A stretch of DNA of 39,600 bases from Anaerolineae bacterium (GTDB lineage Bacteria; Chloroflexota; Anaerolineae; Epilineales; JAHCIE01), in contig JAHCIP010000014.1 in the NCBI GenBank assembly GCA_026129165.1, positions 1-39,600 of the forward strand. The letters run 5' to 3'. The notes beneath the pieces are model-generated. The model was not told the DNA's origin, did no database searches, and saw only the letters and a program-made list of their open reading frames with translations. Positions 2,460 through 39,287 of the stretch are shown piece after piece (position 1 is the stretch's first letter; every line of letters begins with the position of its first letter). Made by a program: the position numbers and the translations under genes.

Positions 2460-5400
2460 ATGAGCCGCCTGACCGTTCTCGCCCTGGCCTGGTTCGCCGG
2501 ATTGAGCCTGGCCGCGTGGCATCCCCCCTATGTACCGCTCGTCGTCCTCATCGGCCTGGCCTACCTGGCGCTCCTCGTCTGGTTCCGGCAGCGCATTCGC
2601 CTCGCCCTGCTGGTCGGCCTCGCCGTCGCCGGTCTGGGCGGCCTGGCCCTCCTGGTTTGGTTGGCGCCACCGCTACTCCTCCCCCCAGCCTTCGTTCGGG
2701 CGCTCGTCGCTTTAGGTGGTCTGGCCGTTTTGGCCTGGCTCGGCCGGCAGATGTACCTCCCGCCACTGGTGGTCCTGGTCGTGGTGGCGCTAGGCGTTGG
2801 CCGGCTGTGGCTGGCCGACTGGCGACCCGCAGCCGAAGCCTGGCCGCGCCTGCTGAACCAGGACGTGACATTGACGGGCATGGTGGATGAAGACCCAATC
2901 AATGTCAAAGGGGTGGTCACGGTGCGCTTGCTGGTGGAGCGGGTGGAGGTGAATGGCAAACCGCAGTCGCTCACCTCCATCTGGCTCGCTAATGACCCAC
3001 GGCCTCTGCTTTGTCAGGCGCTCTCCTGGCTGTGCGCGCCCGGCGCGGCCGATCAGACGCCCTCGCTGATATGTCCTCAGGCCCCCGTGGCCTGGTGGCA
3101 GACGGCGCTATGTCCCCCCAGGCCGGCCATCCAGGCGCGGATCAATGTGGACCAACTGCCGTACGGTGAAGGGGACCGGCTCCTGCGCTACGGGAACCGC
3201 CTGGTTCTGACGGGCAAGCTGCGCGAGGCCCCGGAGTTCGACCTGTTCCCCTACCGCCAAACGTTGGCCCGAGACGGGGTCTACGCGCGGCTGACGCCCG
3301 TCAAGACAATACAGGAGGACGGCGCTAACATCGGCTTTCCCCCGCGCGTCGGCGCTACGACCTTGCGCCGCCAGTTGGACGCTATCATCCGCGAGTTGAT
3401 GCCCAACAGCCCTCGTGAAGCTGGTCTGCTAGCGGGCATCCTGCTAGGGCTACAGGTCCGCCTGACAGATGAAATGGTGGAGGGATTGCGCAGCACCAGC
3501 CTGTCCCATATAGTTGTCGTTTCGGGATTCAATATCGCGATCTTGACGATGGGCATTAGTGGCTTCCTATACTTCGTTGCTTGGGTTCTCGCGTTGGTAG
3601 CTGACCAGGCTCTCATCCATCGTCGCTTTAAGACTGTTGACTGGCTACTAGCCCTGCAGCGTCGCTGTCTGCCCATTTCAAAGACCTGGGTTCTTCTCCA
3701 CATCGTCGCGCTGATCGCCTACACCTTCTTCGTCGGGCTTGACCCCTCGCCGGTGCGTGCTGCGCTCATGGGCTGTGTGTATGTCATAGCGAAGCACATG
3801 GGCCGGCCCTCGACAACGCTCACTAGCCTCACGGTAACGGCGTGGGTGATCACCGTTATTACGCCCTGGGCGCTACTCGATATCGGGTTCCAGTTGACTT
3901 TTATGGCGGTCCTGGGTCTAGTTCTTTTGCAACCCGTGCTCAACACCTGGCTCTACCGAGGGCGGCTCTTCCCGCCTTTCGACGCCCCCCGCCGCGACTG
4001 GCCGCACCTCCCCCTGATGCTGCGCGGGCTGGTCAGCACGACCCTGGCTGCCACCCTCATGACCGCCCCCATCATCTCGTACTACTTCAACCAGGTGTCG
4101 GCCATTGGCCTGCTGGCGAACATCCTGGCCTTGCCGGTCCAGGCCGCGATTATGTTCATGGGGCTGGGCGCGGTCTTGTTAGCGTGGGGAGCATCGCTTG
4201 TCGGCGGCCTCCACGACGGCCTGATGTTTATGGCCCGCCTGCTGAGTAGCCTTACCTGGCCCTTGCTGCGCTATACGGTCGAGGTGATTCTGACGCTGGC
4301 GCAAGCGCCCTGGGCGGCGTTCGACTGGCGAGCGTCGGGGCAGGCCATCGTCTTTATGTACAGTGTGATAGGAGCCGTCGGCCTGTGGCTGGCCTTCGCC
4401 TTGCGCCTGGTCAATTTCCGGACGCTGTTCCTCGATCCGTCTCGAGCCGCGCGTGCCCCCGCGACCGCCGCGCCCCTCGTCCCGGCGGACGCCATCCCGA
4501 CCGCGCCCCCGTTACAGCGCGGTTTTGGCGCCACCCAACCGACCGCCGCCCTCGCCGAACGCCCCGGCCCACCCACGACGCGCTGGCGTCGGCCCGCACC
4601 GGTGGACGCCGCCCCTACCCGACCGACGTACCGTTTCGGCGCGCCGACGACGCCGGTCAGCCGCGCGCCCCTCAGTCCTGTCGGCGACCGCCCCACTCTG
4701 CCAGCGCCGCCCGTGGTGGCGCCGCCCGTCACGTCGTCCGCGCCTGAACCCGCTGTCGTCTACTGCCCGCCGGCCCAGCCAGTCGCCCGCCAGCCCATGG
4801 ACGGCCTGGGTCCTCACCCTCGCCGCCCCTTCGACGTGCTGATCACCCCGACCTGGACAAGTTGGTTTAGGTTGCGTTATGTCGTGCCTGTCTTCGCGCT
4901 GTGGGTACTCGTCAGCCTGACGTGGCCGCTGGCCTCAGGCCGTCCGGATGGGTTACTCCATCTGACGCTGGTCACACCCGGCGATACGGTGGTCGTTCGC
5001 ACGCCGCACGGCGAGCGCATGGTGATCGGCGGCGGCTCGTGGGCCTCGGACACGCTGGCGGAAGCGGATCGGGGCTGGCTGCCCTGGGAAAGACGGCTGA
5101 GCGTCGTAGCCGCGACCCGGCTGGACCGCCCTTACCTGGAGGCGCTCAACGAGGTGATGGCCCGCCACCCGGTCCGCGCGGCCATGGCGCCCCCCCGCCC
5201 GCGCACGGCGGGGGGCTTCGCCTGGGACAACGCCGTCCAGAAGCCGGGGGTGACACGTATTGACGTGGATGAGCGGCTGCCCGTCAGTCTGGCCCTCGAT
5301 GGCGTCAGCCTGGAAGCCATCGCCTATGATGAGGTCGAGAAGGCCGTGCTGTACCAGGTGCGCTGGGGCGAGGTACGCTTCGTGCTCGGCGGAGGAGGGC

Positions 5401-5642
5401 GGGGGCCAATGCCAGCGGTCTCAGCGCCCGCGACGGTTGTCCTGCTGAGCCGCGAGACGCAGCCCGACCTCGTCACGGCGCTGGCGCGGGCGTATCGTCC
5501 CGCGCTGTGGGTCGTCCAGACAGTAGAAGAAGGCGACGCAGCGCCTGACTGGATGGACCGCCTGCCGGCCGTCCTGGCCGACCGCCCCATCACGCTGACC
5601 ACCAACGGCCAGCGGCTCTGGCTGGACACCGAACCTCGGTAG
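2460..5642 (+). CDS. comEC: ComEC/Rec2-like DNA uptake channel with degenerate metallo-beta-lactamase domain
   Basis: 1060 residues. ComEC forms the inner-membrane channel for transforming single-stranded DNA. N-terminal hydrophobic segments (~1-120), an OB-like DUF4131 region (~130-280), then the Competence membrane domain (~320-650) with the characteristic 'LSHIVVVSGFNIAIL' helix (~345-360). A proline/alanine-rich linker of about 130 residues (~660-800) follows, much longer than usual. After one more helix, residues ~832-1060 align with the usual metallo-beta-lactamase tail ('LHLTLVTPGDTVVVRTPHGERMVI'-like start, 'LPWERRLSVVAATR'), but the HxHxDH metal motif is replaced by 'RLDRPYLEAL' (~886-895), so the nuclease-like domain is probably inactive. 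The stop codon TAG lies inside a hairpin repeat. No other competence genes are in view. Confidence 0.88.
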   Translation: MSRLTVLALAWFAGLSLAAWHPPYVPLVVLIGLAYLALLVWFRQRIRLALLVGLAVAGLGGLALLVWLAPPLLLPPAFVRALVALGGLAVLAWLGRQMYLPPLVVLVVVALGVGRLWLADWRPAAEAWPRLLNQDVTLTGMVDEDPINVKGVVTVRLLVERVEVNGKPQSLTSIWLANDPRPLLCQALSWLCAPGAADQTPSLICPQAPVAWWQTALCPPRPAIQARINVDQLPYGEGDRLLRYGNRLVLTGKLREAPEFDLFPYRQTLARDGVYARLTPVKTIQEDGANIGFPPRVGATTLRRQLDAIIRELMPNSPREAGLLAGILLGLQVRLTDEMVEGLRSTSLSHIVVVSGFNIAILTMGISGFLYFVAWVLALVADQALIHRRFKTVDWLLALQRRCLPISKTWVLLHIVALIAYTFFVGLDPSPVRAALMGCVYVIAKHMGRPSTTLTSLTVTAWVITVITPWALLDIGFQLTFMAVLGLVLLQPVLNTWLYRGRLFPPFDAPRRDWPHLPLMLRGLVSTTLAATLMTAPIISYYFNQVSAIGLLANILALPVQAAIMFMGLGAVLLAWGASLVGGLHDGLMFMARLLSSLTWPLLRYTVEVILTLAQAPWAAFDWRASGQAIVFMYSVIGAVGLWLAFALRLVNFRTLFLDPSRAARAPATAAPLVPADAIPTAPPLQRGFGATQPTAALAERPGPPTTRWRRPAPVDAAPTRPTYRFGAPTTPVSRAPLSPVGDRPTLPAPPVVAPPVTSSAPEPAVVYCPPAQPVARQPMDGLGPHPRRPFDVLITPTWTSWFRLRYVVPVFALWVLVSLTWPLASGRPDGLLHLTLVTPGDTVVVRTPHGERMVIGGGSWASDTLAEADRGWLPWERRLSVVAATRLDRPYLEALNEVMARHPVRAAMAPPRPRTAGGFAWDNAVQKPGVTRIDVDERLPVSLALDGVSLEAIAYDEVEKAVLYQVRWGEVRFVLGGGGRGPMPAVSAPATVVLLSRETQPDLVTALARAYRPALWVVQTVEEGDAAPDWMDRLPAVLADRPITLTTNGQRLWLDTEPR

Positions 5643-5689
5643 GGGCGCCCCTCGTGAGTGCCCAGGGCAACCACAAGGGGCGCCCCTAC
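5639..5689. repeat. Family B hairpin repeat (GTAGGGGC...GCCCCTAC) carrying the comEC stop codon
   Basis: Perfect 14-base arms GTAGGGGCGCCCCT (5639-5652) and AGGGGCGCCCCTAC (5676-5689) around a 23-base centre. The TAG of the left arm (5640-5642) is the comEC stop codon. Elements with the same GTAGGG...CCCTAC ends recur at 23433-23505 and 39233-39287, with a composite inside dnaG. Confidence 0.85.
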
Positions 5690-6494: not shown

Positions 6495-6532
6495 ATAACC
6501 TCCCGAAGGTTTCAGAACCTTTGGGAGGTTAT
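6495..6532. repeat. Family C hairpin (ATAACCTCCCGAAGGTT...), copy 1
   Basis: ATAACCTCCCgAAGGTT (6495-6511) pairs with AACCTTtGGGAGGTTAT (6516-6532), 16 of 17 positions complementary. It lies between the sortase stop and the OsmC gene. It has no T-run, so terminator activity is uncertain. A near-identical copy is at 23558-23593, which shows that it is a dispersed element and not only a local terminator. Confidence 0.75.
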
Positions 6533-12920: not shown

Positions 12921-12926
12921 GGGGAA

Positions 12927-12996
12927 GTAGTCAGTAGTCGGTAGTCGGTAGTTAGTAGCTAGATTGTCTGACTACCGACTACTGACTACTGACTAC
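12927..12996. repeat. Family D inverted repeat (GTAGTCAGTAG...) filling the rpoD-yvcK gap
   Basis: Left arm 12927-12946 and right arm 12970-12989 are perfectly complementary over 20 bases, built from GTAGTC/GGTAGTC units; the right side carries extra units to 12996. The rpoD stop codon (TAG on the minus strand, 12993-12995) is part of the element. The intergenic gap is 72 bp and the element covers nearly all of it. Confidence 0.9.
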
Positions 12997-14352: not shown

Positions 14353-16362
14353 CTACCGTGTCGGCACAGGGTTACGTAACGTCTGGGTCAGGGCGCGTTG
14401 GATACGTTCGAGATCGAGGGACACATGCTGCACGCGGACGGCGTAGCGGCTCACGCTGGCCTCGTCGCCGTCACTGTTGGCATCGGCCTGTAAATATTCG
14501 AGTTGAGTTAGCTCTTGCTTGCGCTGGCCCTCGCGCAGACGCAAGAGGGTAATGAGCGCCTCGCGCTCGACGGCGTCGTCCTGGAGCACCGGTGACCGTG
14601 CCATACCCTGCTCGATGAAGGCCAGGTGGGCGTCGAGGACACCATCGGCCAGTGGCTTCCCGAGCAGGGCCGCCAAGAGGGCCTGGTTATCGGCCTGGCT
14701 GAAGTCGGCCTCGCCGAGGGGTGTCATACCCTGGTCCGTTAAGAGCTTCTGGACGCGGGCCAATGTGTGCGGGGCGCGCAGCAGCAGGCCCAGGATGTAC
14801 TCCTCCCGCCCGAACAGGCGGGTCGCGGACCGAGGCGCCTGGGCAGGTCTTGTACCTGCCCCTACCCGATCGGACGGGGTCTGTAGCGGCGGGCCTTGTG
14901 CCCGCCCTGTCCCTACGTACCCTCCACCTGTCCGGTCGGGCGCGGTGACCGCGCCCCTACCCATGTCGCCCTCACCCCCCTCTCGCTCCCCCCGCAGGCG
15001 GGGGGATGGAGGGGTAGACGACCGGCGCAGGGTCCGAAACTGCTGGGTCAACTGGCGCTCGTCCACACGGGTCAGACGGGCCAGCCATTGGAGATAGTGG
15101 GCCTGTTCGACCGGGCTATCCAGTTCGTCGCGGATCACCTGTAAGAGGCGCGTGACCGCCTCGGCCTTACCTGTTGGCGTGTTCAGGTCCAGGTCACTGA
15201 CCAGGGCCGTAAAGTAGTAGTCGGGAACAGGCTTGGCCTGGGCCACGCGCCGTTCCCACTCAGCCGGGTTCTGCTTGACCAGGTCATCCGGGTCCAGGCC
15301 CGGCGGCAGGAGGGCGATACGCAGTTCGACGGCCCGCTTCTCGACGGTATTGAGCCGGCCGCCCGGCCCCGGCATGCGCCGCTTCTGGGTCGCCACGGCC
15401 TGCGCCGCGACCTGGAGGCCGCGCAAGGTGGCCGCGTTGCCTGCCGTGTCGGCATCCAGGGCCAGGACCAGGATGGTCGCGTGGCGGGCGGCCAGGGCCA
15501 CCTGGGCCTCGGTGAGGGCCGTGCCCAGCGAGGCGACGACGTTGTGGAAGCCGCGCTGGTGCAGGCTGACCACATCCATGTAGCCCTCGACGACGACCAC
15601 CGTTCCCGTGCGCCGTACAGCGTCCTTCGCCAAGTCCAACGCGTACAGCCCCGCGCCCTTGTCGAACAGCTCTGTCCCCGGCGAGTTCAGGTACTTGGGC
15701 GTGGCGTCGGCCAGCGTCCGCCCGCCGAAGCCGATGACCCGGCCGCGCTCGTCCCGAATGGGGAAGACCAGGCGGGCGCGGAAGCGGTCGTAGTGGCCGC
15801 CGCCCTCGCGCTCGACGGCCAGCCCGCCCAGGGCGATGTCCTCGGCGCGGAAGCCGCGCGCCTGAAGGCTGGTGAGCAGGTGGTCCCAACTGTCCAGGGC
15901 GTAGCCCAGGCCGAAGCGGTCGCGCGTGGCGTCGTCTACTTGCCGCTGTTGGAGGTAGGCGCGGGCCGGGGCGGCCGCCGGCGCGTTGAGCAGGCTATTG
16001 TAAAAGAGGCTGGCGGCGGCGGCGTGGATGTCGTAGAGACGCTGCCGCGCCGTGTCCTCGGCCTGGTCGGTCGGGGTACGCGGTTTGAGTTCGACGCCAG
16101 CCCGGTCGGCCAGCAGGCGCAGGGCTTCGGCAAAGTCTACGCTTTCGGCGCGTTGGATGAAGGAGAAGATGTCGCCACCCGTACTACAGGCGCCGAAGCA
16201 GTGCCAAGTCTGACGGTCCGGGTTGACCACGAAGGAGGGGGTCTTTTCGGAGTGAAAGGGGCAGAGGCCCTTGAAGGTGCGGCCGGCCTTCTTGAGTTGG
16301 ACGTAGCCGCCCACGACATCCACGATGTCGAGCCGCGCCTTGATCTCGTCGGTGACACTCAC
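14353..16362 (-). CDS. dnaG: DNA primase DnaG with an in-frame repeat insertion
   Basis: 669 residues from GTG 16362, chosen because GGGAGGGA lies just upstream and the promoter at 16395-16423 excludes the longer frame from 16440. DnaG makes RNA primers at the replication fork. Zinc-binding CHC2 domain: C34-x2-H37-x17-C55-x3-C59; the last pair is CFGAC where most primases have CFGC. Then the RNAP-basic region and TOPRIM ('[17 protein letters not shown]', '[12 protein letters not shown]'). Residues ~446-509, at the junction to the helicase-interacting C-terminal domain, are encoded by a hairpin-rich composite repeat ([16 protein letters not shown]-like, low complexity) that keeps the frame. 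The C-terminal domain resumes at '[16 protein letters not shown]'. Confidence 0.95.
14838..15008. repeat. Family B composite repeat inside dnaG
   Basis: Four successive GC-rich hairpins: GGGCAGGT...ACCTGCCC (from 14841), GGCGGGC...GCCCGCC (~14889-14908), GGGCGCGGT-GACCGCGCCC (~14938-14956) and CCCCCCGC-ag-GCGGGGGG (14988-15005), joined by CCCTAC/GTCCCTAC pieces like those of the other family B copies. The whole stretch is read through as part of dnaG without a stop or frameshift. Confidence 0.8.
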
Positions 16363-16503: not shown

Positions 16504-16608
16504 AAAGGACGAAGGACAAAGGACGAAAGACCAAGAAGACGGGACGGAGGACGAAGGCGTCCTTGGTACCCCCTCATTCCTCCGTCTTCCGTCCTTCGTC
16601 CTCCGTCA
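16504..16608. repeat. Family E repeat (GGACGAAGGAC units) at the 3' end of the STAND gene
   Basis: Purine-rich units (GGACGAAGGAC, GGACGGAGGACGAAGG) on the left face pyrimidine-rich complementary units (TCCGTCTTCCGTCCTTCGTC, 16580-16599) on the right, giving a long degenerate hairpin. The right arm encodes the last ~13 residues (LTEDEGRKTEE) and stop of the STAND gene on the minus strand. The remaining gap up to the dnaG promoter shows nothing else. Confidence 0.8.
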
Positions 16609-18931
16609 GCGATTCCAGCCTCCGCCGCGCCTGCTGCGTATCCCTGTGGTCCCGCCCTAGCACCGTCTCAAAGATACGCACGGCACGTTCATACTGAACA
16701 CGGGCCGCCGCCCCGTCGCCTTGGTCATACAGGACAGCGCCCAGGTGGGTGAGGGTGTAGGCCACCTCGGGGTGGTCGGGGCCAAGCTTGTCTTCCCGGA
16801 TACTCAGGGCGCGCTCAAGGCGAGCACGGGCGCGGGGGAGATCCCCTTGCGCCTGGAACACCAGGCCCAGGCTATGGAGGCGGCTGGCGACATCGGGGTG
16901 ATCGGAGCCTAGCGTGATCTCGCTGATACGCAGCGAACGTTCGAGATGGACCCGGGCGGCAGCTAGCTCGCCCAATTCGCGCAGGATGGTCCCCAGGCGC
17001 CCCAGTCGCTTCGCCGTGTTAGGATGGTCAGGGCCAAACGCGGCTTCCGTAATGTGTAGCGAGCGCTCCTGGAAGGCGCGCGCGGTAGATAACTCACCTT
17101 GCGCCCGCAGGACATCCACGAGATTGTTGAGGATGATGGCGATGACGGGATGGTCTGGGCCTCGGATCGCCTCCTCGATGCCTAAAGCGCGCTCATAGTG
17201 AGCGCGGGCGAGGGGCAAGTCCCCCAGCTCGTATAGGACCAGGGCCAGATTGTTGCAGCTCTCGGCTACATCAGGATGATCGGGGCCGAGATGGGCCTCG
17301 CGCAGGCGCAACGCACGCTCAATAGCCGCCTGCGCGGCCCGATATTGCGCCCGGCTCCACAGGTACAGCCCGCCCTGACTGAGGAGAGTCGCCGTCTCCG
17401 CCCAGGCCACCCCCAGCGCCTCCGCCGCCTCGGTCGCCTGGAAGCCATGGGGCAGTAGACGCTCACAGAGAGGCCAGTTGCGGTAGTCGTCGGTGTCCTC
17501 TGGCACCGCCGCGTTCACCACGCGCACCGCCGCCGACGCCCAGGTCCGCGTCGCGTCGGCGTCCAGGCGGGCGCGGGTCACGGCCTGGACGAGACGGTGG
17601 AGGGACAGTACGGTGGTTAGTGGTTGGTGGTCAGTGGTCAGTGGCGGTGTGGCGGCCTGTCCTCCGTCCTCCGTCCTTCGTCCTCCGTCAGCCTGGACCT
17701 CCACCAGCGAGTAGTCGCCCAGCAGGCCCAGGGCGTCGGGAAGGTCCAACTCGTCGGTCACACAGGCAGCCAGGCGTTCGGGCAAGTGCTCGGCCCAGGT
17801 GACAATGGCGTCCAGCGGGATGTGGTCTGGCGCGAAGAAGGCGCACAGCCGCAGCAGGTCGGCGGCGGCTGGCATAGCCGTTTCGACGTGCTCGAAGGCC
17901 AGCGCCCACGTCGTCGCCACGGTAGCCGGGTAGTCCTGGCTCGGCTTCTCCTTTTCCAGCAGCGCCAGGTGATATTTGCCGTACAGAGCGAGATATTGGG
18001 CCAGGGGCAGACGCCGCCGGTCTATGTACGCGGCTGCCTGCTCTATCGCAAGCGGTAGCCCGCCCAACTCCCGCGCCAATGCCTGGGCGCTCGCCTCGTC
18101 CACCTGCCCCGTCCGTCGCAGCAGCATGGCCGCCGCTTCGTCCTCCGTCAGTGGCGGCGCCTCCACTACGCGCGCCAGCCCGCCCCAGGCTCGGTAGCGC
18201 GATGTCATCAGCACATGCCCTCGCAGCGGGCGCGGCAGGTAGCGCTTCACGTCCTCGGGCCGCTCAACGTTATCCAGCGTCAGCAGCCAGCCGTCGTGCT
18301 CTCCCAGCCAGCGTAACGCGGCGTCTACTGCCAGCCGTTGCTGCTGCGTCCTGGCCTCGACCAGCTCCAGGCGCTCGGCCAGTTGTGCGAACTGGTTTGG
18401 GATCGTCGCCGCCACCTCTGCGTCCACCCACCATATGACCGCGTAGTCGTCCTGGTAGCGGTAGGCATACTCCACCGCCGTCTGTGTCTTGCCAATGCCC
18501 CCCAGGCCGACGATAGCCTGGGGCAGCGCCGTCCCGTCCGTCGTCAGCGCACGGCGCAGGTCAGCCAGCAAGTCCTTGCGGCCCATAAAGTTGGGGTTGC
18601 GGAGGTGCGTGATATTCCAGATAGAGGAGTGGGTGGCGGGGGAGTAGGTGGTGGGGGTAGTGGTGGATGAGTGGAGGGTGGGCAGGTCGTCGAGGAGGTA
18701 GCCGCGCTCGTTGCGCCGCAGCCAATCGAATAGGGGGGCGAAGTCGCGCCGCACCTGGGGATGCTCGACCAGGGCGATGACCCGTTCGCTAAAGGTCGCC
18801 CCCGGCAGGTCGGCATAGCGAAGGCCGAGGTCATGGCACACAATGGGCAACTCGGTATCCGCGAGGCCATCCACCAACCGCGCCCGTAACGCCGCCCGCC
18901 CCTTCTCGTCCAGCACAGTCCGCTCCGCCAT
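16574..18931 (-). CDS. STAND NTPase: EAD-like, NB-ARC and TPR domains
   Basis: 785 residues. Residues ~8-85 are a small helical domain ('LRARLVDGLADTELPIVCHD', 'ADLPGATFSERVIALVEH') of the effector-associated (EAD, death-like) type that recruits partner effectors. NB-ARC ATPase follows: 'FMGRKDLL', P-loop GLGGIGKTQ (~141-149), 'WLLTLDNVE' Walker B, 'VLMTSRY' sensor and 'ELGGLPLAIEQAAAYI'. From ~540 to the end come kinesin-light-chain-like TPRs (LGPDHPDVAESCNNLALVLYELG type, about six). Such proteins are thought to act as signal-triggered switches in conflict/defence or developmental signalling. No effector gene with a matching EAD is seen here. Residues ~413-440 and the last ~13 residues are encoded by dispersed repeats. 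Specific function unknown. Confidence 0.85.
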   Translation of the reverse strand: MAERTVLDEKGRAALRARLVDGLADTELPIVCHDLGLRYADLPGATFSERVIALVEHPQVRRDFAPLFDWLRRNERGYLLDDLPTLHSSTTTPTTYSPATHSSIWNITHLRNPNFMGRKDLLADLRRALTTDGTALPQAIVGLGGIGKTQTAVEYAYRYQDDYAVIWWVDAEVAATIPNQFAQLAERLELVEARTQQQRLAVDAALRWLGEHDGWLLTLDNVERPEDVKRYLPRPLRGHVLMTSRYRAWGGLARVVEAPPLTEDEAAAMLLRRTGQVDEASAQALARELGGLPLAIEQAAAYIDRRRLPLAQYLALYGKYHLALLEKEKPSQDYPATVATTWALAFEHVETAMPAAADLLRLCAFFAPDHIPLDAIVTWAEHLPERLAACVTDELDLPDALGLLGDYSLVEVQADGGRRTEDGGQAATPPLTTDHQPLTTVLSLHRLVQAVTRARLDADATRTWASAAVRVVNAAVPEDTDDYRNWPLCERLLPHGFQATEAAEALGVAWAETATLLSQGGLYLWSRAQYRAAQAAIERALRLREAHLGPDHPDVAESCNNLALVLYELGDLPLARAHYERALGIEEAIRGPDHPVIAIILNNLVDVLRAQGELSTARAFQERSLHITEAAFGPDHPNTAKRLGRLGTILRELGELAAARVHLERSLRISEITLGSDHPDVASRLHSLGLVFQAQGDLPRARARLERALSIREDKLGPDHPEVAYTLTHLGAVLYDQGDGAAARVQYERAVRIFETVLGRDHRDTQQARRRLESLTEDEGRKTEE
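17608..17690. repeat. Mixed family D/E repeat inside the STAND gene
   Basis: TGGTTAGTGGTTGGTGGTCAG-like units on the left side (each shorter than one helical turn) followed by CCTCCGTCCTTCGTCCTCCGTC-like units on the right. The two halves are not complementary to each other, as if halves of two different elements were joined. It encodes a low-complexity stretch (GGRRTEDGGQAAT then TTDHQPLTTV) in frame between the NB-ARC winged-helix region and the TPRs. Confidence 0.7.
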
Positions 18932-23432: not shown

Positions 23433-23505
23433 AGGGGGTGGGGTTGCGCCCGAAGGGGGTAGGGGCGCGGTTACCGCGCCCTGGACGGGCAAACCCCACC
23501 CCTAC
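23433..23505. repeat. Family B repeat upstream of ppdK
   Basis: Outer stem AGGGGGTGGGGTTGCGCCCG (from 23433) against CGGGCAAACCCCACCCCT (to 23503), with an inner perfect hairpin GGGCGCGGT-TACCGCGCCC and the family ends GTAGGGG (23459) and CCCCTAC (23505). It is 80 bp before the ppdK start on the promoter side. The 320-bp gap 23352-23671 otherwise holds only the family C copy and a hairpin at the higA end. Confidence 0.8.
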
Positions 23506-23557: not shown

Positions 23558-23593
23558 ATAACCTCCCGAAGGTTCGGCAACCTTCGGGAGGTT
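23558..23593. repeat. Family C hairpin, copy 2
   Basis: ATAACCTCCCGAAGGTT (23558-23574), a 3-base loop, then AACCTTCGGGAGGTT, perfectly complementary over 15 bases. It shares its left arm base for base with the copy at 6495-6511. It lies in the gap between the higA end and ppdK. Confidence 0.8.
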
Positions 23594-24421: not shown

Positions 24422-27400
24422 CTAGAACTCCTCCACCTTGCTCAGATCCACCAGGCTCATCGGCAACCGGGCAATCCTCTGCAATAGGGCGCGGCGATTG
24501 GTGCGGACGTCTGCATCCTTGTCCTCCACCAGCACGGCGTCGAAGAAGGTGTTGATGGGCGCGACAAGGCTCTGCATGGCCGTGAACACCTGGTCCAGGC
24601 TATTTGCACCGTCGAACTGCCCCTCCACTACCTGGAGCGCCGCGTACAACCCGCGCTCCGCGTCGTGGACAAAGCGGGCCGGGTCCAGCGGGAAGGTCTC
24701 CGTGTGGCTGCGCACCAGGCGCACGCACCGCGCATAGGCCGTCAGGAACGCGGACCACTCCGACTGCTGCGTCCACGCTGTGAGTTGCTGCAAGCCCTGG
24801 ACCACACCGGCCGGGTTGTCCCGCTGCGCCGCCAGTACGGCCTGCACCAGGTCATAGCGACCCCCCTGGTCGCGCAGCCACTGCTCCAGGCGGGCCAGGA
24901 TAAAGTCGCGCACCGCCGTCTGCGCCACCTTATCCACCGCCACCGGCTGGACCGCCGCCGCCTCGGCAATCAGTTGCGTCAGCGACACCGCGCCGCGACC
25001 GTCGTCTACCTCCGTCGCCCGTCCTCCATCGTCCGTCTTCCGTCTGCCTTCCGCCAATAACCGCGCCAACCCCAGCGCCGTGCGCCGCAGGCCCAGCGGG
25101 TCCTGCGTAGCCGTGGGCTGCTGGCCGACGGCGAACATGCCCACCAGGGCGTCCAGGCGGTCGGCCACGCTCAGCGCGAAGCCCACCGGGCTGCCCGGCA
25201 GCTTATCCGTGGCCGACTTGGGCAAGTACTGCTCGTAGATCGCCAGCGCCACCGCCTCCGGCTCGCCATCCGAGCGCGCATAGTCGCGGCCAATCGCCCC
25301 CTGGAGGCCCGTCAACTCGGTCCCCATTTGCGTGGCAACATCGGCCTTGCTCAGGCGCGCCGCCCGCTTGAGCCACTGCGTTTCTTGCTCGGACAGGCCG
25401 AAGGCTGGCCCAAAGCTCTCGGCCAGCCGTGCCAGCCGTTCGGTCTTCGCTAGCAGCGAGCCAAGCTTGGCATGGACGGTGATCCGCTCCAACTGGGGAA
25501 CGAACTCTTCCAGCCGATGCTGACGGTCGCGCTTGACAAAGTAGGCCGCGTCGGCGAAGCGGGCGCGGACCACCGCCTCGTTGCCAAAGCGAATGTTCTC
25601 AGCGTGCGCAGCGTTGCCGTTGGCGATGGCGATGAAGTACGGCAGCAGCGACGAAGGACGGACGACGGACGACGGATGCTCTGCCGTCTGTCCTCCGTCC
25701 TTCGTCCTTCGTCCTTCGTCGCGCAGCACGGCGAAGTACCGCTGGTGCTTGCGCATGACCGTGATGAGCACATCCTGCGGCAGGTCGAGGTACTCCTTCT
25801 CGAAGCTGCCCCGCACGGCCACCGGCTGCTCCACCAGGTGCACCACCTCGTCCAGCAGGCCCGGGTCGTCGGAGATGACCCCGCCGACTTCCGCCGCCGA
25901 CTTCCGCGCCTGCTCAAGGATCATCTGGCGGCGCTCCGCCGGGTCCAGCACGATGCCCGTCGCCCGCATGACCTTGCCGTAGTCCTCGGCCTGGGCGATG
26001 GGCAGGTCAGGCGAGCCTTGCGGCCGCAGCCCGCGCGTCGTCGCGCCCGCCTGGAGGCCGGCGTACTCGAACGGGACGACGGCCCGCCCGTGCAAGGCGA
26101 CGAGCCAGCGCACCGGCCGCGAGAAGGCCACGTTGGACGGGTTCCAGCGCATGGCCTTGCCGAAACTGAGGCCCGCGATGAGCTTGGGCAGCGCCTCGCT
26201 CAACACCTCACTGGCTGGCCGCCCCGTCTCCGTCTTGACCACCGCGGCGTAGCGCTTGCCCTCACGGTCGCGCACCTGGACCGCTTCGGGCGCGACACCC
26301 TGGGCGCGAGCAAAGCCGGTTAGGGCTGGCGTCGGCTGGCCGTCCTTGAAGGCCACCTGGGCCGGCGGCCCGAAGACCTCCACCTCGCGGTCGGGCTGGC
26401 GGTCGGCCAGGCCCTTGATGCACACGGCGACCCGGCGCGGCGTCCCCAGCACGTCGAGACGGGTGTAATCCAGGCGAGCTTCACTCAGCAGTCTAGGGAA
26501 GGCCGCCTTCAACTGGTCCAACGCGCCCTGGAGGTCCTGGGGTGGCAACTCCTCCGTCCCAATCTCCAGCACAAAGTCGGCTGGCTCTGTCGGCGCGGGG
26601 CCGCCCTCGGCCGGCAGCGGCGCGGGGGCGGGCAGGTAGTCGCCCATCAGCCGCAGCAGCGGGTAGCCCTGCGCCTCGCGCTCCCGCAGATACGCCTGCG
26701 CCACCTCGCGCGACAACTGGCGCATCCGCCCGAAGTAGCGCGTGCGGTCGGTCACGCCAATCGCGCCCCGCGCGTCGAGGATGTTGAACGTGTGCGACAT
26801 CCTCAGCACGTAGTCGTGGGCCGGGAAGATCAGGTTGTGCTTGAGGCAGTGCTCGGCCTGCTGGGCGTAGACCTCAAACAGGCGCAGATGCGTCTCCACG
26901 TCGGCCACATCCAGGTAGTAGGTCGAGTGCTCGAACTCTGGGCGCAGGTTGACGTCGCCCACCGAAATCATGTCGTTCCAGCAGATGTCCTTGAAGTGGC
27001 GCGCGCCCTGGATGGCCATGGCGATGCGGTCGAGGCCGTAGGTAATCTCGACGGAGACGGGGTCCAGCCGCGTACCGCCGGCTTCCTGGAAGTAGGTGAA
27101 CTGGGTAATCTCCAGCCCGTTGAGCCACACCTCCCAGCCCAGCCCCCACGCGCCGAGGGCGGGCGACTCCCAGTTGTCCTCGACAAAGCGGATGTCGTGC
27201 TCCAGGGGGTCAATGCCGATGGCGCGCAGGCTGTCCAGGTACATCTGCTGCGGGTCGCCCGGATCGGGCTTGAGGATGACCTGGTACTGGTGGTGCATCT
27301 GCATGCGGTTCGGGTTCTCGCCGTAGCGCGCATCGTCGGGCCGGATGGACGGCTCGACATAGCCGACGCGCCACGGTTCGGGGCCAAGGACGCGCAGCGA

Positions 27401-27547
27401 GGTGGCCGGGTTGCCCGTCCCCGCCCCGACCTGGACGTTGTACGGCTGCCAGATGAGCGCGCCCCGGCTGGCCCAGAACTCGTGCAGGCGGGCAATCATG
27501 TCTTGGAAGTTGAGGGGTTTGGTGGGTTGTGAGTGGTGGTCAGTCAC
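24422..27547 (-). CDS. glyQS: Glycyl-tRNA synthetase, alpha and beta subunits fused, with two in-frame repeats
   Basis: 1041 residues. It charges tRNA-Gly. Residues ~1-290 are the catalytic alpha unit ('[20 protein letters not shown]', '[20 protein letters not shown]', '[20 protein letters not shown]', '[14 protein letters not shown]'). A Pro/Ala linker (~305-325) leads to the beta unit ('[15 protein letters not shown]', '[10 protein letters not shown]', '[17 protein letters not shown]'). Most bacteria have separate glyQ and glyS; fusion is known in some lineages and in plastids. Repeat-encoded loops lie at ~607-634, exactly between 'QRYFAVL' and '[11 protein letters not shown]', where other GlyS proteins have only a few residues, and at ~828-850 after '[10 protein letters not shown]'. 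It follows recO and a DUF2283 gene with a 30-base gap. recO-glyQ-glyS adjacency is widespread. Confidence 0.95.
25000..25054. repeat. Family E half-element inside glyQS
   Basis: Pyrimidine-rich units CCTCCGTCGCCCGTCCTCC, then GTCCGTCTTCCGTCTGCC on the plus strand, encoding [19 protein letters not shown] in the synthetase. The purine-rich partner arm is missing, so this looks like a decayed or half copy. Confidence 0.65.
25648..25722. repeat. Family E inverted repeat inside glyQS
   Basis: Perfect 12-base terminal arms GCGACGAAGGAC (25648-25659) and GTCCTTCGTCGC (25711-25722), with internal GACGGAC units facing TCCGTCC units. 75 bp long, a multiple of three, and open in the glyQS frame on the minus strand ([16 protein letters not shown]-type peptide). 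Confidence 0.9.
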
Positions 27548-39232: not shown

Positions 39233-39287
39233 GGGTAGGGGCGAACCGACGTGTTCGCCCTGGGCCGACACACCGGTCGGCCTACCC
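39233..39287. repeat. Family B repeat with two inner hairpins
   Basis: GGGTAGG/CCTACCC ends (39233-39239 and 39281-39287) enclose GGGCGAAC-cgac-GTGTTCGCCC and GGCCGAC-acacc-GGTCGGCC, a cloverleaf-like plan. It lies in the 212-base gap after the ABC operon; no terminator or gene is otherwise seen there. Confidence 0.8.

Follow-up and report, generated by a model that had tools for sequence, protein, structure and literature searches.

In-frame GTAG REP palindromes in the linker-encoding segment of a Chloroflexota dnaG gene

A composite of palindromic repeats lies in frame within the DNA primase gene (dnaG) of an Anaerolineae bacterium, at a place where the linker of the same-genus protein is shorter and free of such repeats. 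It is highly probable, in our judgement, that selfish GTAG REPs and one copy of a 44-bp palindrome family accumulated in the segment of dnaG that encodes a disordered linker, and were kept where they were in frame and tolerated. The window, i.e. the whole stretch of DNA analysed here, is a single 39.6-kb contig of a genome of 6.5 Mb, which consists of 598 contigs and is ∼91% complete.

Results

The dnaG gene (14353–16362, minus strand) has a GTG start and encodes a protein of 669 aa, in which Pfam recognizes the Zn ribbon, DNAG_N and Toprim domains; the nearest named relatives of the protein come from Chloroflexota metagenome genomes. The repeat-derived segment occupies 14836–15015 on the minus strand and is read in frame as approximately residues 450–509 of DnaG. 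It is made of two repeat families, with three GTAG REPs and one palindrome of a second family. Palindrome 1 (about 14974–15015, strand unassigned) is a nested copy of the 44-bp family, TACCCCCCCATCCCCCCGCnnGCGGGGGGAGCCAGAGGGGGGTA. Hairpin 2 (14938–14960, minus strand) is a GTAG REP of the form GTAG-GGGCGCGGT-C-ACCGCGCCC, with a 9-bp stem and a 1-nt loop, and it matches an intergenic copy at 23459–23481 at 22 of 23 bases. Hairpin 3 (14883–14916, strand unassigned) is bounded by GTAG...CTAC and has a 7-bp stem, GGCGGGC/GCCCGCC; it is a divergent member. Hairpin 4 (14841–14865, minus strand) is again a GTAG REP, GTAG-GGGCAGGT-ACAAG-ACCTGCCC, with an 8-bp stem and a 5-nt loop. The computed RNA fold is at –107.5 kcal/mol (z = –2.73 versus dinucleotide shuffles). 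An initial annotation of this DNA had described four GC-rich hairpins within dnaG at 14838–15008 with the frame open through them, and this description is borne out, with slightly wider borders. It had also counted about 64 encoded residues; the in-frame low-complexity stretch is indeed there, while its size is 59–60 residues. An open frame says little by itself here, as one of the three frames of the minus strand passes through the segment without a stop. A nucleotide search of the genome with the composite (171-bp query), which the initial annotation had proposed, gave a complete match at the dnaG locus only and 45 partial matches elsewhere, so parts of the composite are dispersed repeats.

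In the part of the host genome that was sampled (contigs C1–C55, in part, and regions around matches) there are ∼100 distinct GTAGGG-type hairpins, mostly intergenic. Across 725 kb of host sequence, window included, stems of 7 bp or more directly follow GTAGGGGC at 19 of 52 sites, whereas 16 of 17 other 8-mers gave 0–6% in the same test; the exception, GTAGGGGT (4/38, 10.5%), is a variant of the GTAGGGGC motif. For a tetranucleotide lying directly 5′ of a short hairpin the value is 1.6% with GTAG versus about 0.5–0.8% with most other permutations, TAGG and GGTA being also high, and both of these overlap GTAG. Exact GTAGGGGC-N14-GCCC sites number 70 in the whole genome versus 4 for the reversed pattern, and spacers of 9–13 add a further 45 sites (17 in the control). 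The stems vary with their pairing kept: among 54 distinct 26-nt members, 185 of the 216 cells at four variable positions are Watson–Crick paired, a value reached in 0 of 5000 permutations (mean 109, maximum 139). Subfamilies with AGGC/GCCT, GAAC/GTTC, AACC/GGTT and CGAC/GTCG are found. Some members form head-to-head pairs 1–40 nt apart (for example on C132, C137, C378, C423, C556 and C577), and these account in part for the excess of neighbouring GTAG hairpins <150 bp apart (5 versus 0.33 expected in the sample). With a GTAG foot, a length of 20–40 bp, dispersed and mostly intergenic copies, complementary stem variants and head-to-head dimers, the elements have the features of GTAG REPs.

Matches to the hairpin motif place three of these sites in the window outside dnaG: a head-to-head REP pair bounded by GTAG/CTAC (5639–5689, strand unassigned), an intergenic REP of the same subfamily as hairpin 2 (23459–23481, plus strand) and an intergenic REP of the GAAC/GTTC subfamily (39235–39260, plus strand). 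All three had been pointed out before and are real, though the position given for the second, 23433, was slightly off. The TAG stop codon of ORF 2460–5642 is supplied by the GTAG of the REP pair (5639–5642).

The 44-bp palindrome is treated here as a repeat family apart from the REPs and is not classed as a REP, no GTAG foot being common to the copies listed, that at 14974–15015 included. The sampled host sequence holds 18 distinct copies, 5 of them inside genes and in frame, namely in dnaG and in the genes for an NB-ARC/TPR protein, a glycosyltransferase (where the copy is placed between the two domains), a possible Cas10-like protein (a call that falls short of the Pfam threshold) and a hydantoinase. 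For the GTAGGG hairpins, location inside genes was judged with a home-made hexamer gene model, a coding signal score of 10 being required on both sides of the element. Eight of 100 distinct hairpins pass, of which one (L278) is probably a chance match; among the genes hit are carB, dnaG and a heparinase-like gene. Composite in-frame inserts of REP and other palindromes are also seen in carB and the heparinase-like gene (L317 1501–1523; L282 12037–12129). Mapped onto E. coli CarB, the carB insert separates residues 419 and 420, in an alignment that begins at residue 4, the first residues of the query differing from the genome, and the same-genus carB is shorter by 34 residues at this site. Since the carB, heparinase-like, glycosyltransferase and hydantoinase genes carry comparable inserts, dnaG is probably not a special target; a functional effect on the hinge in the replication machinery, to which attention had been drawn, would be hypothetical. 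Preferential targeting of replication genes, which we also considered, is unsupported here with such a range of targets.

From the conserved QF to the conserved EEY of DnaG there are 77 residues in the window protein versus 36 in the same-genus genome, whose linker is repeat-free, so that the net gain relative to this one genome (G001) is 41 residues. The dnaG of G001 is spread over two contigs and broken near but not at the insert, and its linker is contiguous in one of them. In part at least, the original linker has been replaced or has diverged, so that the exact boundary of the insertion is blurred. In the AlphaFold model (built on 31 sequences, mean pLDDT 85.7) values of pLDDT <50 are restricted to residues 452–516 and the last three residues, with confident domains on either side. 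The predicted C-terminal domain is all-helical, and its resemblance to the helicase-binding domains of primases is weak (5z51, E 0.15 despite a probability of 1.00). According to this model, the insert stretch is a predicted disordered linker that precedes the helicase-binding domain. The Pfam DnaB_bind match (381–435) was rejected as the C-terminal domain meant in the initial annotation, as it is positioned before the insert. The claim that a repeat insertion sits where the polymerase region meets the helicase-binding domain at the C terminus agrees both with the same-genus protein, which is without the insert, and with the disorder predicted at this place.

A comparison of the linker across relatives, likewise proposed earlier, gave lengths of 30 to 105 in 100 proteins (median near 42), with the window protein 4th at 87 and a GTAG hairpin in none of the linkers of the other 99. 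Relatives were searched for a conserved, non-repeat version of the segment, and they are without it. The hinge is thus longer than in the same-genus protein, as had been claimed, but the gain is 41 and not 64 residues and the resulting length is within the natural range; linker length alone was rejected as a sign of novelty on the same grounds.

Discussion

The sequence of events that we favour would begin with REP-type transposition placing a palindrome in dnaG. Copies that break the frame or hit folded parts of the protein would be lost, and the remaining copies would persist because they leave the frame open and the linker can accommodate residues of low complexity; further palindromes could then pile up in the disordered linker. 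The gene would be transcribed and translated through the hairpins, and the product would be a primase whose flexible linker is longer and which probably works almost normally. Single-strand transposition of the REP/RAYT type was probably the route of arrival, and we infer the order of the dnaG insertions and the near-neutrality of the insert. Several points speak against this account: no RAYT was found in the host or in the same-genus genome, the number of elements in relatives does not follow the presence of a RAYT, the boundary of the insertion is blurred, hairpin 3 is divergent, and dnaG of G001 is split, although its linker is contiguous.

Among other explanations, an adaptive insertion, in which a longer or repeat-encoded linker alters primase–helicase coupling and was selected for, fares best and is nonetheless improbable. 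The insert does lie at the hinge between the catalytic and helicase-binding domains, and Di Nocera et al. speculate that it is no accident to find REPs in genes for replication and repair (PMC3733652), but similar linker lengths occur naturally in relatives and comparable inserts are present in unrelated genes. We give marginally less credit to an assembly artefact, i.e. a repeat-induced misjoin in a metagenome-assembled genome. Repeats break assemblies, this genome is in 598 contigs, and dnaG of G001 is itself broken near, though not at, the insert point; however, one dnaG runs in one frame on both sides of the insert, the 171-bp composite is unique to the dnaG locus, and other genes of the genome have similar in-frame inserts. 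That the segment is an ordinary low-complexity GC-rich linker with accidental palindromes is very improbable: GC-rich DNA yields chance hairpins (127 stems of 8 bp versus 114 in shuffles), yet the GTAG-hairpin and 44-bp motifs recur in many copies elsewhere in the genome and the same-genus linker is without them. Just as hard to credit is decay of a dispensable dnaG that tolerates the insert: there is a second, partial primase-like match on C13, but the frame of dnaG is intact, its domains are confidently folded in the AlphaFold model, it is the sole full-length copy found in the genome, and third-position bias continues 3′ of the insert (98 changes versus the same-genus relative at third codon positions, 53 and 45 at the others).

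Neither the host genome (91% complete) nor the same-genus genome yielded a RAYT. The host's one intact Y1 transposase, on C312, has an IS200-type Y...Q motif, and it was rejected as REP mobiliser, being IS200-like and with GTAG hairpins absent nearby. In a comparison of 60 relatives by eye, whether a genome has a RAYT did not predict how many elements it carries. Hosts of REPs can lose their REPtrons (PMC3733652), so a RAYT in the same genome is not a strict requirement for REPs.

In relatives, GTAGGGGC palindromes flank RAYT genes or sit inside them. At 14 of the 23 RAYT loci examined (L329, L332, L335–L338, L341–L343, L347, L348, L356, L357 and L269) a GTAGGGGC palindrome lies in frame just after the HUH motif, 10–50 residues past it; L331 is a fifteenth such locus, where the palindrome is inside the match although the ORF finder picked another frame. 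The internal palindrome is often read as V-G-A...A-P, its stem varies between genomes, and it need not match the other copies of the same genome, as the mismatch in G021 illustrates. The papers checked speak only of REPs that flank a RAYT gene or overlap its end, and a further search of the library gave no report of a REP inside a RAYT reading frame; this is not proof of novelty. A speculative and rather unlikely reading is that the GTAGGGGC palindromes of Chloroflexota are maintained in a form that can be translated, in frame in one RAYT loop as V-G-A...A-P and with a stem that varies while pairing is kept. If true, a coding-safe design of GTAGGGGC elements would account for their persistence in genes such as dnaG. 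The palindrome within RAYT hints at a connection, open to testing, of a REP with its potential mobiliser gene. In another genome, G056, we noticed uniform REPIN-like heterodimers (C55, C84, C100 and others) of GTAGGGGCGAACCTGTGTGTTCGCCC followed by 5 nt and an inverted GTAGGGGCAGACCTATGTGTCTGCCC, RAYT being undetected there.

The dnaG case is a clear new instance of a known phenomenon and not a new kind of system, since GTAG REPs and Rickettsia palindromic elements (RPE) are precedents. GTAG REPs occur in Chloroflexi, REPs have been described inside genes for replication and repair (Di Nocera et al. 2013, PMC3733652), and intragenic REP clusters encode 43–82 residues, for which tolerance by linkers has been proposed (PMC3733652); neither dnaG nor primase is mentioned in the main text of that paper. 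Our elements share with those GTAG REPs the GTAG foot, a short GC-rich stem, complementary stem variants and head-to-head pairs, as well as a Chloroflexi host, location inside replication or repair genes, coding by clusters and the proposed tolerance of linkers. They differ in that the three GTAG hairpins here adjoin another palindrome family and that no RAYT was found in the host. The RPEs stand in frame in conserved, unrelated proteins and are apparently tolerated (PMC2229807; PMC3767692); RPE-bearing Gmk is still active, with substrate affinity altered (PMC2229807). In-frame insertion into unrelated conserved genes, here dnaG, carB and others, is common to both, but an RPE is a single element of 100–150 bp from Rickettsiales, whereas the Chloroflexota insert is a mosaic of elements of 23–44 bp, most of them GTAG-footed. 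The dnaG repeats thus work like RPEs and are not members of that family. Head-to-head REP pairs, and REPs beside RAYT genes in relatives, recall the REPIN/RAYT system (PMC3116915, PMC2817692), from which our case differs in that a mobiliser was not found in the host and that the REP of relatives is often within the RAYT reading frame. The case extends the list of proteins that selfish palindromes have made longer to an essential gene of the replisome and to a host outside the Proteobacteria, and for two genes, dnaG and carB, there is a same-genus counterpart in which the insert is absent. It is also an experiment of nature on the linker length that DnaG can tolerate.

Other repeats were noticed in the window. 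A simple repeat of GGACGGAGGACGAAGGAC type, different from the dnaG palindromes, stands in frame twice (25640–25730 and 25005–25060) in ORF 24422–27547 (minus strand), which by eye resembles glycyl-tRNA synthetase (RKHQRYF...) and in which the repeat lengthens a loop between two conserved motifs. The same type is read in frame as EVQADGGRRTEDGGQAATPPL at 17640–17700 in ORF 16574–18931 (minus strand). A terminator-like 36-bp palindrome, ATAACCTCCCGAAGGTT...AACCTTCGGGAGGTT, is present in two copies (6495–6530 and 23558–23593, 86% identical), and a near-perfect long inverted repeat of GTAGTCAGTAGTCGG units lies between two genes at 12926–12996.
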